Both the position numbers and the translations under genes were made by a program. A stretch of DNA of 39,042 bases. It comes from a virus. Shown here one piece after another: positions 2,945 through 10,826 of the stretch (position 1 is its first letter; each line of letters starts with the position of its first letter). The stretch spans positions 1 through 39,042 of the IMG/VR virus record IMGVR_UViG_3300044949_001160; one strand, 5' to 3'. The notes below the pieces were generated by a model. It searched no databases. It was not told the DNA's origin and saw only the letters and a list, made by a program, of their open reading frames with translations.

Positions 2945-3353
2945 TGCGGAGGCGCCACCGGGCGAGTTTCAGGGCTGCCTCGCCGATCTCGACGGGTGGC
3001 AGCGGGTTCATCGTCTGGACGTGTTCGAGCATCGCGCGGCCTGCGTCGGCCTCTGTCCCACCGGCGCGCAGGACGCTCGTGGCCACGTCTGCGAGCTGCC
3101 TTTCTTGCTCACGGCGCTGGCGGATCATGGCCAGCTCCGTGTCGTGCCGCGCGTCGCGTGCCGTGTGGATCAAGCGCATCCGCAGGCCGATCGGATCGGT
3201 GTTAGGTGCATTCTCGCGGGCAGTGCGAACGATCACGGCCATCGTCCTAGCCGCTTCACCGTCCGGCAGGTCGCCGCGAGCCACCATTTCGCCCAGGCGA
3301 CGGGCGGCTTCGTGCTGATTTGGTGGGTCGATCGTGGGTCGATTGTGGGTCAT
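2934..3353 (-). CDS. Hypothetical protein upstream of VirE-type gene
   Basis: This 139-residue, mostly helical, Arg-rich protein is not recognised. It overlaps both neighbours by a few bases, so it is translated with the replication gene. A helper in replication (loader or primase accessory) is a reasonable guess from position only. Confidence 0.68.
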   Translation of the reverse strand: MTHNRPTIDPPNQHEAARRLGEMVARGDLPDGEAARTMAVIVRTARENAPNTDPIGLRMRLIHTARDARHDTELAMIRQRREQERQLADVATSVLRAGGTEADAGRAMLEHVQTMNPLPPVEIGEAALKLARWRLRNGR

Positions 3354-3895: not shown

Positions 3896-4038
3896 TTCAC
3901 AACCTCCCACTCGGGATGCAGAAACAGATAAAGCCGCCGGCTCTCCTCACTCAGCAGCCCCGCCAACCACAGCCCCGTGTTGGCACACACCACCGCGTAA
4001 AGCCGGCCGTCGCGCGTGAGGCGGACGCGGCGGGTCAT
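3892..4038 (-). CDS. 48-residue basic protein, first gene of a minus-strand run
   Basis: This short open frame starts at ATG 4038 after TAGGAAAA (good Shine-Dalgarno) and ends with TGA at 3892-3894, overlapping the GTG start of the next gene. The product begins MTRRVRLTRDGRLYAVV and ends HPEWEVVK. The spacing and overlap are those of a real phage gene. No function is recognised. Confidence 0.6.
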   Translation of the reverse strand: MTRRVRLTRDGRLYAVVCANTGLWLAGLLSEESRRLYLFLHPEWEVVK

Positions 4039-4050
4039 GCCGTTTTCCTA

Positions 4051-4080
4051 TTGCTAGACGCGACAAAATGTCCCATTGTC
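4051..4080. promoter_or_regulatory. Divergent promoter/operator region
   Basis: Genes diverge from here, minus at 4038 and plus at 4104. GACAAAATGTC at 4062-4072 is a GACA-N3-TGTC palindrome, followed by a third related half-site in CCCATTGTC. On the plus strand TTGCTA (4051-4056) and CATTGT (4074-4079) are 17 bases apart. The palindrome could be an operator for the XRE regulator encoded at 4309, which is inference. Confidence 0.4.
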
Positions 4081-4103
4081 CACCCATCGACGGGGAGGCA
4101 CCC

Positions 4104-4319
4104 ATGGCGCACATTCGGATCGAGATGGACCGCGGCAACGGCTGGGAGGTGCGCCAGGACGGCCACGCCAACGTGACGGCCGACGACTTGGCCGCCAGCG
4201 CCATCGGCTACTCGATCAGCTATCCGCACCGCTTCTTTCTGGATGGCGTGCTGGTTGCCTCCACCGCCCGCCCGCATGGCCTGCGCGGCAAGGCCCGGCT
4301 CACGCGCCATGACGCCTGA
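4104..4319 (+). CDS. Small hypothetical protein upstream of XRE gene
   Basis: This 71-residue protein starts at ATG 4104 after a strong GGGGAGG. It overlaps the following XRE gene by 11 bases, so the two form a two-gene plus-strand cassette inside an otherwise minus-strand region. It has a short beta-rich body (IRIEMDRGNGWEVRQDG) and a basic tail. No known toxin family is recognised, although the layout resembles a toxin/antitoxin or regulator pair. Confidence 0.65.
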   Translation: MAHIRIEMDRGNGWEVRQDGHANVTADDLAASAIGYSISYPHRFFLDGVLVASTARPHGLRGKARLTRHDA

Positions 4320-4503
4320 CGAGTTCAAAGCCGCGCGCCAGGCCGCCGGGTTTGCGACCCAGGAAGCCATTGCGGAGGCGTTTGACTTGAACCGGCGCAC
4401 GGTGAGCCGATGGGAGCGCGGGCAGGTGCCGGTGCCGAAGGTGGTGGAGATCGCGCTAGGCTGCATGGCGCGCCTCCGCTTGCAGGATGGCGCGGCCGAT
4501 TAG
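4309..4503 (+). CDS. XRE-family helix-turn-helix regulator
   Basis: This 64-residue single-domain protein has a Cro/CI-type helix-turn-helix at about residues 3-45: FKAARQAAGFATQEAIAEAF, then LNRRTVSRWERGQVPVP. The ATG at 4309 lies within the end of the upstream gene, indicating coupling. Its last 48 bases overlap tail-to-tail with the 3' end of the methyltransferase gene on the other strand. It probably binds the palindromes in the divergent promoter upstream and controls the minus-strand run that starts at 4038. Confidence 0.82.
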   Translation: MTPDEFKAARQAAGFATQEAIAEAFDLNRRTVSRWERGQVPVPKVVEIALGCMARLRLQDGAAD

Positions 4504-5283
4504 CTCCGGGATCTGCGGGACGACGGCGTTGCCGAAGGCTCGCAGACGGTCCACCCGAGCGGGAACCCCATGAGCCACTCGACCCACGTGGGGTTCAAGG
4601 CTCCACCCACTGCGTTCGGTAATTGCTCGCCCTTCTTGCCGCCCCCCCTCTGCGAGTAAGGGGTGGCATTCGGGTGCCGATAATCCCTCGCCGCTGGCGT
4701 TGGCCAGAGGCGGGCTGCTCCCGTTAAGGACAGGTTCTTGCCCTTGTAGCGCAGTGGCGCGCCTCTCCCATCGCCCGCGTCTGCCGCTACCGGCGTAGGC
4801 CACAATCCACAGTCGATCCCGCCTGTGAGGGGCGCCAAGGGCGGAAGCCGGAATGCAGTGCCACTCCGCATCATACCCGAGCGCGGCCAAGTCTCCGAGA
4901 ACGTCTCCAAACCCTCGCCAAAGAAGTGCTGCGACGTTTTCCACGATGACGAAACGGGGTCGTATCTCGCCAATAAGTCGGGCGTAATCGCGCCATAAAC
5001 CCGACCGCTCGCCGGCGAGTCCTGCTCCCTTGCCGGCAACGCTGATGTCCTGGCAGGGGAACCCTCCGCAAATGACATCCACGGAAATTCCGTCTGCTGC
5101 CAGTTGCTCGGCGGTGAGGGTTCGTACGTCATCGTAGATCGGCACTCCCGGCCAGTGTTTCGCCAGAACGGCGCGGCAGAACGGTTCGATTTCACAGAAC
5201 GCTGCCGTGGTCATGCCGGCCCGCTCCAGGCCAAGCGAGAACCTACCGATGCCGCTGAAGAGGTCGAGAACTTGGAGCGTCAT
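4456..5283 (-). CDS. dcm: DNA (cytosine-5) methyltransferase
   Basis: This 275-residue enzyme transfers a methyl group from SAM to cytosine C5. Motif I DLFSGIG is at 7-13, motif IV PCQ at 76-78 with catalytic C77, motif VI ENV at 115-117, motif VIII HRRDR at 153-157, and motif X GNAVVPQ lies near the C-terminus. The ATG at 5283 overlaps the previous stop in an ATGA. The target-recognition part is short. In a phage it most likely protects DNA from host restriction. A second long open frame lies inside it (separate entry). Confidence 0.95.
   Translation of the reverse strand: MTLQVLDLFSGIGRFSLGLERAGMTTAAFCEIEPFCRAVLAKHWPGVPIYDDVRTLTAEQLAADGISVDVICGGFPCQDISVAGKGAGLAGERSGLWRDYARLIGEIRPRFVIVENVAALLWRGFGDVLGDLAALGYDAEWHCIPASALGAPHRRDRLWIVAYAGSGRRGRWERRATALQGQEPVLNGSSPPLANASGEGLSAPECHPLLAEGGRQEGRAITERSGWSLEPHVGRVAHGVPARVDRLRAFGNAVVPQIPELIGRAILQAEARHAA
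4500..5078 (-). CDS. Overlapping frame inside the methyltransferase gene
   Basis: In another frame of the same strand, an ATG at 5078 opens 192 codons that cover motif IV to the end of the methyltransferase. The product has recurrent motifs I recognise from separately annotated phage proteins: ARTSALP, SSSWKTSQ, FSETWPRSGMMRSG, LWPTP and LNPTWVEWLMGFPLGW. Either a real protein is encoded in overlap, or these database proteins are themselves frame shadows of conserved methyltransferase DNA. No clear Shine-Dalgarno precedes the ATG. Confidence 0.3.
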   Translation of the reverse strand: MSFAEGSPARTSALPAREQDSPASGRVYGAITPDLLARYDPVSSSWKTSQHFFGEGLETFSETWPRSGMMRSGTAFRLPPLAPLTGGIDCGLWPTPVAADAGDGRGAPLRYKGKNLSLTGAARLWPTPAARDYRHPNATPYSQRGGGKKGEQLPNAVGGALNPTWVEWLMGFPLGWTVCEPSATPSSRRSRS

Positions 5284-5609
5284 CCGCGCCCCGCCTTCCA
5301 AGCGTCCCACCACGGATCGTGCAGCACCTCAGCCGTGCCGCTGATCGTCAGCCCGTCCACCACCAGCGAATGCACGACGTATCGCGTCTCATCCACGCAA
5401 AGCCCGCCGGAGCGCGTGCCGTCTGCCTCGCGCTCGATCGCCATGGTGACGGTGAGCCCGCCCACGGTGCGCGCGATGACGTGGCCGGCGTCGCCGCCCT
5501 GGCGCCAGGAGGCGAGGTCATATTCCAGATCGCCGAGGCGCATGTGGCCGCGCAATGCGCCGGGTTCGCCGTGGAGCTGGATGTGGAGGGGGCGCGCGTC
5601 GTCGGTCAT
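5280..5609 (-). CDS. Hypothetical protein
   Basis: This 109-residue protein is predicted to be beta-rich and is not recognised. It starts at ATG 5609 in an ATGA overlap with the VRR-NUC gene and ends in an ATGA overlap with the methyltransferase, so all three are co-translated. Its C-terminus WWDAWKAGRG is aromatic and basic. Confidence 0.65.
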   Translation of the reverse strand: MTDDARPLHIQLHGEPGALRGHMRLGDLEYDLASWRQGGDAGHVIARTVGGLTVTMAIEREADGTRSGGLCVDETRYVVHSLVVDGLTISGTAEVLHDPWWDAWKAGRG

Positions 5610-8870: not shown

Positions 8871-9043
8871 CGGATCTGCTCTTGATCTTGCCCGCGCTCC
8901 TCTGCGCGCTGGCTACCTACATCGTCGGCCACGAGACGGTGGCCACGACGTTGCGCGAAGGCTGGCCGCCGTGGATCGGCGTGTTGCTGACCATTGCGTG
9001 CCTCCTCACAACCTTCATTGCGGTCGCGGCGGTGCTTGCATGA
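8867..9043 (+). CDS. Small protein with two membrane segments
   Basis: A GTG at 8867 (GTGA overlap) opens 58 codons ending in TGA at 9041-9043, which overlaps the next ATG. The product has two hydrophobic helices, LLLILPALLCALATYIVG and WIGVLLTIACLLTTFIAVAA, joined by a short polar hairpin. It is in the early operon, far from lysis genes, so an inner-membrane exclusion or host-takeover protein is more likely than a holin. That role is inferred. Confidence 0.62.
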   Translation: MTDLLLILPALLCALATYIVGHETVATTLREGWPPWIGVLLTIACLLTTFIAVAAVLA

Positions 9044-9294
9044 ACCACGTGTCGGATATCAGGCCAATTCTGCACAGCATCATGTCGCCAGACGGTGCGC
9101 CGCAGGATCGCGCGCGGCGTGTGGCTGAGACGCTGAACGAAATGCTCGAGGCCGGCGAGTTCGCGCGGTTGACGTCGCGGCAGCTCGTGGCGCTGCGCGG
9201 CGTGGTGTGGGCCGTTTCGGAAATTGCGGACGATGTTGAGACGGCGCAGCAGAAGCGCCAGCCGCAGCGGCCGGTGCGGTGGTGGCGCAGGTAG
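9040..9294 (+). CDS. Hypothetical helical protein
   Basis: This 84-residue, mostly helical protein is not recognised. The ATG at 9040 overlaps the previous stop (ATGA). The C-terminus is strongly basic (KRQPQRPVRWWRR), suggesting nucleic-acid contact. It immediately precedes the recombination cassette. Confidence 0.62.
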   Translation: MNHVSDIRPILHSIMSPDGAPQDRARRVAETLNEMLEAGEFARLTSRQLVALRGVVWAVSEIADDVETAQQKRQPQRPVRWWRR

Positions 9295-9332
9295 CCACCC
9301 AAACCCAAAGATACAACCAACAAGGAAAGACA

Positions 9333-9974
9333 ATGAACGCAATTTCCAAGGCGACAACCATCGCCATCAGCCCGCCAAACATGGCCGAACTTCACACCAC
9401 CATTATCGGCACGGCGCCGTTGATGATTGCGCGGTTCAGCCAGAAGTCGATGCAGGCCATGCTTGAGAAGCACGTTGCCGGTTCGCAGGCCAACAAGAAG
9501 AAAGCCAAAGTTGCGCGCGATCTGGACGCGGATTTCAACGGCGCGCGGCACATCAGCACGGACGGGTGGGACGGCATCCATGCCGGCGCTTTCCGGGCCG
9601 CCATGATCTCGGCATGCCGACTGGTGGGCTTCAAGATGACGCTCGCCAAGCTGTCGCTGTTTGTCCACGCGGACGGATACGATCGAGTCGACGCCACGCC
9701 GCTGGTTCGGATTGATGGCGGCGAGCCGGAGCGCAGCGAGATGCCGGTGCGCAATGCGACTGGAGTGATGGACATTCGCATTCGGCCAGTGTGGCGCGAA
9801 TGGAAGTGCCACCTCCGGCTGCGTTACGACGCGGATCAGTTTCAGGCTGCCGACGTGCTGAACCTGCTGGCGCGCGTCGGGATGCAAGTCGGCATCGGTG
9901 AAGGCCGGCCTGACTCGCGCGAAAGCGCCGGGATCGGGTTCGGGCTGTTCCGCATCGAAAGCGACGCGGGCTGA
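9333..9974 (+). CDS. Conserved phage protein with RAMP/Cas7-like features
   Basis: This 213-residue protein starts at ATG 9333 after AAGGAAAG. Three blocks recall RAMP/Cas7-type RNA-binding folds: an opening strand IIGTAPLMIARFS (24-36), GIHAGAFRAAMISACRL (81-97) resembling the RAMP 'IPGSSLKGALR' region, and a C-terminal VLNLLARVGMQVGIGEGRP (175-193) followed by a Gly-rich loop GIGFGLF (200-206). The same kind of protein occurs in other phages as a hypothetical. It heads a cassette with a YqaJ-type exonuclease and lies directly 5' of the pentanucleotide array. A strand-annealing or RNA-binding role is possible. The fold assignment is by eye. Confidence 0.72.
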   Translation: MNAISKATTIAISPPNMAELHTTIIGTAPLMIARFSQKSMQAMLEKHVAGSQANKKKAKVARDLDADFNGARHISTDGWDGIHAGAFRAAMISACRLVGFKMTLAKLSLFVHADGYDRVDATPLVRIDGGEPERSEMPVRNATGVMDIRIRPVWREWKCHLRLRYDADQFQAADVLNLLARVGMQVGIGEGRPDSRESAGIGFGLFRIESDAG

Positions 9975-9981
9975 GAATGTG

Positions 9982-10338
9982 GGCAACGCACGGCTGGCGC
10001 GGCTTGGCATGGCGAGGCTAGGCAAGGCACGACACTGCAGGCGAGGCGAGGCGCGTGGCTGGGTTTGGCAGCGCAGGCAAGTCGAGGCACGGCGGGGCCG
10101 CATGTGGCCGGATTTAGCACCGCGAGGCAGGCGAGACGCGGCCGGGCATGGCGAGGCCAGGCTTGGCACGGCGAGGCACCGCAGGCCACGCATGGCGAGG
10201 CGGGCCTCGGCAAGGCACGGCGGCATCTGGCGAGGTTTGGCAGGCGTGGCGCGGCAAGGCGCGGCGAGGCACGGCTGGGCCCGGCGACGCGTCGCAGGCG
10301 AGGCACGGCGCCGATTGGCAAGGCCGGGCATGGCCGGC
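9982..10338 (+). repeat. Degenerate pentanucleotide (NNGGC) array
   Basis: This 357-base non-coding stretch is built of units of five bases whose last three are GGC and whose first two vary (GA, AC, AA, AT, GC, TT, CG, CA and others). I count 56 GGC trinucleotides. Unbroken runs at exact 5-base spacing occur at 9996-10028, 10140-10177 and 10243-10285; elsewhere one-base slips or single substitutions (CGC, TGC, GAC, GGT) break phase. It occupies the only large gap in an otherwise overlapping operon and is co-oriented with it, so it should be transcribed. All six frames stay largely open because the units rarely make stops. None has coding evidence. Confidence 0.88.
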
Positions 10339-10361
10339 AACAACACAAATCAGGAGGCTGA

Positions 10362-10826
10362 ATGAACGGACTATCCGCAGCAGCACGCGCTGAGCTTGAA
10401 GCACTCCGCGCCGAGAAAGGCGGCAACTTGATCCCTGCCGACGTGGTGGAGCAGGCTCGCAGCCAAAACAGCGCACTCCACCGCTACTTCGAATGGGACG
10501 ACACGGAAGCCGCCGCGAAGTATCGCGAACAGCAAGCGCGCGGTGTCATCCGTGCAGTGGTGCGCTTCTTGCCCAACGCCAGCGGCTACCCGGTTTCGGT
10601 GCGCGCCTATGTGTCGCTGCCAGCCGATCGGGAAGCACGCGCCGGCTATCGCGCGGTGGCTGACGTAATGGACGATGACGCGCTGGCGGCGCAGGCGTTG
10701 CAGGCTTTCGAGGCCGACGTGATCCGCTTGCAGGCCAAGTATGGCGTGTATGCCACCATCCGGCCGACGATTGCTGAGGCTGTGAGCGAGATGCGTCGCG
10801 TGCTGGCGCCGGCGGTGGCAGCGTGA
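10362..10826 (+). CDS. Conserved phage protein of recombination cassette
   Basis: This 154-residue protein starts at ATG 10362 after CAGGAGGCTGA, an excellent ribosome site, as expected for a restart after the non-coding array. It contains VVEQARSQNSALHRYFEWDD and AAAKYREQQARGVIRAVV, features I associate with a conserved hypothetical family next to phage exonucleases. It ends in a GTGA overlap with the exonuclease. The function is unknown. Confidence 0.75.
   Translation: MNGLSAAARAELEALRAEKGGNLIPADVVEQARSQNSALHRYFEWDDTEAAAKYREQQARGVIRAVVRFLPNASGYPVSVRAYVSLPADREARAGYRAVADVMDDDALAAQALQAFEADVIRLQAKYGVYATIRPTIAEAVSEMRRVLAPAVAA

Follow-up and report, generated by a model that had tools for sequence, protein, structure and literature searches.

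The viral stretch analyzed here, 39,042 nucleotides of IMG/VR record IMGVR_UViG_3300044949_001160 (hereafter, the window), raises the question of what a Cas7-like protein does in a phage outside any CRISPR locus. The first-pass annotation had read a RAMP/Cas7-like protein by eye at positions 9333–9974 and had offered two roles for it: the strand-annealing partner of a nearby exonuclease, or an RNA-guided derivative. Its observation that CRISPR components are missing holds, in that no cas gene was recognized among the genes tested and no CRISPR-like repeat array occurs within the window. Its guess of an RNA-guided derivative is very probably right, given the match of the protein to the Vipr family and the GGY/NN pentamer array that lies directly 3′ of the gene, a feature absent from that annotation. 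The locus is composed of three elements:

9333–9974, + strand: vipr, encoding a 213-aa single-domain RAMP (Vipr family, phrog_4652), identified by AlphaFold2 with Foldseek and VIA, a SUSP1 Vipr profile match, and relatives
9982–10336, + strand: vrRNA array of 72 units, with GGY-NN pentamers interrupted by NGCA steps of 4 nt, identified by period-5 excess, HMM segmentation, and the arrays of relatives
10362–10826, + strand: candidate vap (VIPR accessory gene), 154 aa, phrog_15946, with a weak winged-helix-like N-terminus

The open reading frame at 9333–9974 is a real gene, because it is kept in 72 IMG/VR loci, mostly at 45–66% identity, and in annotated phages. The sequence blocks and the Gly-rich C-terminal loop noticed earlier are real as well: in the alignment of relatives, R151, W157, D174, R181, G183, the QVGIGEGR run, and S198/G200/G202/G204 are invariant or nearly so, and the loop (GIGEGR...GxGxG) is kept. 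Structure prediction followed by Foldseek, which had been suggested as a check, bears out the RAMP/Cas7-like fold. The AlphaFold2 model, computed from a 61-sequence alignment, is confident (pLDDT 85, pTM 0.81) and yields 62 Foldseek matches at E ≤ 1e-3 (best E 1.7e-6); the best 50 of the 62 all belong to CRISPR effectors, as subunits of either type III or type VII, with Csm complexes first. The VIA alignment with Csm3 reaches a Z of 11.8 over approximately 150 residues. Thus, as judged from the structure model and the sequence, the product is a single-domain RAMP.

Sequence comparisons specify which RAMP this is. No model in Pfam, NCBIfam, or PADLOC matches the protein, and PHROGs places it in phrog_4652, an unnamed family of unknown function. 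The sole meaningful match in a PDB sequence search is entry 36pp, "SUSP1 Vipr protein" (phmmer E 0.0038). The same entry is found by the family profile at E 5.2e-5, and hhalign aligns the family with SUSP1 Vipr at Prob 93.9 and E 1.5e-7, over the C-terminal third only. VIPR (Viral Interference Programmable Repeat), which was first reported in 2026 and has been put forward as a CRISPR ancestor, is described in the preprint PMC13142463 as a system of phage RAMPs with guide RNAs in which GGY and NN alternate. According to this preprint, only the NN pairs read DNA, with one target base skipped per pair; the hallmarks are a single-domain RAMP of approximately 20 kDa with an RRM core and a G-loop, and a minimal locus of vipr plus vap; and the vrRNA consists of 9–16 repeats followed by a structured 3′ tail. 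In our opinion, the gene at 9333–9974 very probably encodes the Vipr protein of such a system, with its GGY/NN guide array alongside.

The array fills most of the gap that follows vipr (9975–10361), which consists of GGY-NN pentamers and in which it spans 355 bases. GG dinucleotides in this gap are spaced 5 nt apart 37 times, versus about 5 times at most off-period distances; secondary spacings of 4, 9, 14, and 19 nt arise from the 4-nt steps. Perfect GGY runs reach 7, 8, and 9 units; the longest run that shuffling produced was 5 units for the region (2000 shuffles) and 4 units for the window (20 shuffles). HMM segmentation finds seven guide-like stretches in the array, separated by 4-nt units that are mostly NGCA. 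With bounds read from sequence rather than from RNA ends, the well-formed guides contain 8–11 dinucleotides, and no SUSP1-like structured 3′ tail is recognized in the array, which runs continuously. Across the family, GG is almost fixed, and the entropy at two of the five unit positions, 1.90 and 1.97 bits, is close to that of random sequence. Adjacent arrays on the same strand as the vipr homologue are present in 48 of 65 non-redundant viral relatives; in total, approximately 0.6 Mb contains 60 arrays over 49 loci (window included), each within 0.91 kb of the vipr gene. As a positive control, a simple GGY scan of SUSP1 returned a single upstream array and three downstream ones around the two-gene unit, in agreement with PMC13142463. 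A hammerhead-interspersed array was also considered and discarded, since an Rfam scan of the window and 14 other loci gave no such match.

Since VIPR is already known, the window locus is a new member, from a distant branch of Vipr. It resembles the type II system of Escherichia phage SUSP1 (PMC13142463; PDB 36pp) in its Vipr RAMP of approximately 200 aa, its adjacent same-strand GGY/NN arrays, its small second gene, its 1-nt-skip code, and its targets in other phages or mobile elements. It differs in that Vipr aligns by sequence in the C-terminal third only, and in that its second gene shows no detectable kinship to vap1 (hhalign of the candidate vap profile with SUSP1 vap1, Prob 0.2). Moreover, SUSP1 carries separate vrRNAs of approximately 100 nt, each with a tail, whereas the window carries one continuous array cut by NGCA steps. 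The locus is not assigned to type II because no vap1 homologue adjoins vipr. Seven VIPR types and staggered arrays are mentioned in PMC13142463; the punctuated, apparently tail-less array, together with the unrelated accessory gene, may represent a VIPR variant.

The variable dinucleotides of five guides (all on the + strand), and what they are predicted to target, are as follows:

9996–10035, +: guide U1, GC TT AT GA TA AA AC AC; tentative lead, an ALIDYKTT nuclease-like motif in 2 contigs
10076–10125, +: guide U3, AA GA AC GG CG GT CG TT AC GA; predicted target, the phrog_2480 gene of Sak4 phages, 18/20
10130–10179, +: guide U4, GA GC CG AT GA CA TT AC GA AC; no target found
10184–10238, +: guide U5, CA AT GA GG TC AA AC GG CT GA TT; predicted target, a Sak4-like annealing gene, 22/22
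10243–10292, +: guide U6, GT GC AA GC GA AC TG CC GA GT; no target found

Decoded by the 1-nt-skip rule, U5 reads CANATNGANGGNTCNAANACNGGNCTNGA. This pattern matches exactly in at least 120 viral contigs, versus approximately 0.05 expected by chance, a figure calibrated on the 16-base pattern of U1, whose 13 viral matches, taken as the chance rate, scale to approximately 0.05 for a 20-base pattern. Exact-match searches of viral contigs with three sister 20-base patterns (U3, U4, and U6) returned 0 each. All 11 dinucleotides of U5 are matched in 55 viral loci, and 22/22 is also reached in 23 proteobacterial genomes; with a 0- or 2-nt skip, U5 has no match comparable to that at 1 nt. The site lies in frame, as QIDGSKTGLE(L), in a PF13479/Sak4-like single-strand annealing protein of other phages. 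Thus, read as NNx, the variable dinucleotides of U5 spell a conserved in-frame Sak4 peptide of many other phages and prophages. It should be noted that the RAMP had been suspected of being an annealing protein; as decoded, one guide of the array instead spells the annealing protein of a rival phage. The window itself lacks the U5 site (best 14/22), and therefore the system would spare its own genome. Past the NGCA steps, the letters of the array diverge from the continuation of the U5 target, which suggests that the guide ends there.

The best site of U3, 18/20, lies in the phrog_2480 gene, approximately 1.2 kb upstream of Sak4 in the same operon and on the same strand, and all nine places that reach 17 or 18/20 in the Sak4-phage loci are one in-frame peptide of that gene; an exact U3 site was found in neither the viral nor the genome collections. 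Target searches with U4 and U6 gave nothing convincing, and no target was found for U2 and U7. The only in-frame ALIDYKTT matches of U1 are at 5078–5100 of locus L296 and 3204–3226 of locus L306, in a nuclease-like protein in both cases; this protein is a possible third target class. The locus provides an independent, computationally decoded example of VIPR with biologically sensible natural targets.

We consider it highly probable that the locus is a VIPR system made up of vipr, a guide array, and candidate vap, with guides directed against the recombination operon of rivals. By sequence analysis, it combines a Vipr-family RAMP gene, a same-strand GGY/NN array, a co-inherited small gene, and decoded targets. 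In the proposed mechanism, the array would be co-transcribed with vipr and vap to yield about seven guide RNAs bounded by the 4-nt NGCA steps. Vipr would coat each guide and hold its GGY triplets, while the NN pairs would read DNA, skipping one base that would correspond to the codon wobble base; in a cell occupied by both phages, the complex would then keep the rival's recombination operon from being transcribed. For the window locus, we infer RNP formation, DNA binding, and transcriptional repression from the SUSP1 experiments, for which all three are reported in PMC13142463. By this analogy, the most likely role is that of an RNA-guided repressor of rivals' recombination genes, and the likeliest effect in a shared host would be to sabotage the competitor's operon for recombination and replication.

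The guides might, however, act other than by repression, for example in the control of integration, of superinfection, or of recombination with related phages. Recombination genes as targets fit such a role, as does the difference between candidate vap and SUSP1 vap1; on the other side, PMC13142463 reports repression, with competing elements as predicted targets, for the tested type. In our view, a role of this kind is unlikely, though far from implausible.

The gene neighborhood bears on the role as an annealing protein. That proposal, in which the RAMP would partner the neighboring YqaJ exonuclease, draws on the position of the exonuclease two genes away and on the four nearby genes tested, among which no other annealing protein was recognized. 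However, YqaJ exonuclease occurs near vipr in just 3 of 67 loci, compared with 54 of 67 in which the phrog_15946 gene adjoins it, so that the conserved partners of vipr are the array and the latter gene. In addition, the annotated phage Cy-LDV1 encodes both a vipr homologue and a Bet protein of its own, the fold matches listed are all RAMPs, and the proposal leaves the array and its targets unexplained. On gene neighborhood and fold, an annealing role is judged highly improbable. The gene at 10362–10826 is therefore taken as candidate vap and the YqaJ exonuclease as a bystander. The structure model of the candidate vap product (pLDDT 92.5) has no clear structural relative; residues 1–100 show a weak alignment with winged-helix proteins at Z 5–6, a level that may reflect a common arrangement only, and sequence searches of Pfam and PDB found nothing credible. 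Naming the gene by fold was dropped, the matches being too weak. The window is a tailed phage, with the VIPR locus in its early region and, in the remainder, genes for a terminase, portal, capsid, tape measure, and VapE-like protein. Separately, a 313-base segment of the window (4825–5137) shares 84% identity with the terminal part of Microcystis phage Mwe-JY08 (PP395640 45124–45436), where no feature is annotated.

Equally remote is the idea of a stray Cas7/Csm3 subunit that the phage took over from the type III system of a host and that works with the crRNAs of that host. The Csm3-like fold (Z 11.8) and the Gly-rich C-terminal loop are indeed shared with type III Csm3/Cas7, but the window locus is phage-borne and its guides are non-contiguous, no other cas gene was recognized among the genes tested, and no CRISPR repeat was found; furthermore, a conserved non-CRISPR array stands alongside the gene across dozens of loci, and the nearest sequence is Vipr, not Cas7. 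The possibility that the array is a GC-rich minisatellite or protein-coding repeat devoid of guide function, which mechanical open reading frames spanning it (9898–10365, +; 9015–10346, −) and the annotation of like arrays as genes in two database phages would favor, is negligible, since two of five positions are near-random next to a nearly fixed GG, the 4-nt units shift the phase and disrupt reading frames, real targets emerge when the variable letters are decoded, and the array co-occurs with vipr over diverse loci.

The guides of three phages (the window and loci L008 and L001) converge on one rival recombination operon: an L008 guide matches YETIFVDSI of Sak4 in frame (19/20), and an L001 guide matches IAPTGAGK, the Walker A of a helicase within the operon of Sak4 phages, in frame (16/16). 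Walker A is a very common motif, and the L001 match is for that reason weak on its own. A scan of 383 guides gave 3 matches at E < 1e-3 with the 1-nt skip and 0 with other skips or in 12 shuffled runs, in a database to which the U5 search had contributed an excess of Sak4 phages; U5 is therefore not independent there, while the other guides are. In a broader scan over all loci, the 1-nt skip stands barely above other skips (4 versus 0–2 guides), and the guides of all relatives show little or no excess over controls, either in the loci of those relatives or in the loci of the first targets. A Brocalys guide, read by eye, has one viral match, out of frame and taken as chance. With no targets used, NN usage across the family resembles coding-strand codon positions 1–2 (r 0.6; next best frame, 0.17), which raises the question of how in-frame guides originate. 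Tentatively, and with somewhat less than even confidence, we suggest a variant in which each continuous array holds many guides, with 4-nt NGCA slips as their only separators, and in which different phages have repeatedly gained guides against conserved in-frame motifs of one rival operon (QIDGSKTGLEL, YETIFVDSI, and Walker A). If true, such repeated gain would mean either that in-frame guides are selected or that some mechanism acquires them.

Homologues at 34–64% identity, annotated only as hypothetical proteins, are encoded by Cyanophage Cy-LDV1 (g34), Mycobacterium phages Donkeykong (gp49) and Brocalys (gp45), and Gordonia phages UmaThurman (gp39) and ODay (gp19), and GGY/NN arrays adjoin them in all five. 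Because homologous arrays occur in cultured phages of Mycobacterium smegmatis and Gordonia, the system is testable in existing laboratory systems. Two annotated genes coincide with the array beside the vipr homologue, namely Donkeykong gp48 (NC_051648 36870–37256, equal to L307 2450–2836) and UmaThurman gp40 (NC_031249 33362–33685, equal to L308 3595–3918); both are probably phantom coding genes. One contig that encodes a vipr homologue (L065) also carries an abiF RNA (Rfam RF03085) at 132–168 on the − strand. The largest array seen, at 3921–5549 of the 119-kb contig L069, has 332 units over approximately 1.6 kb and holds two dozen or more punctuated guides.
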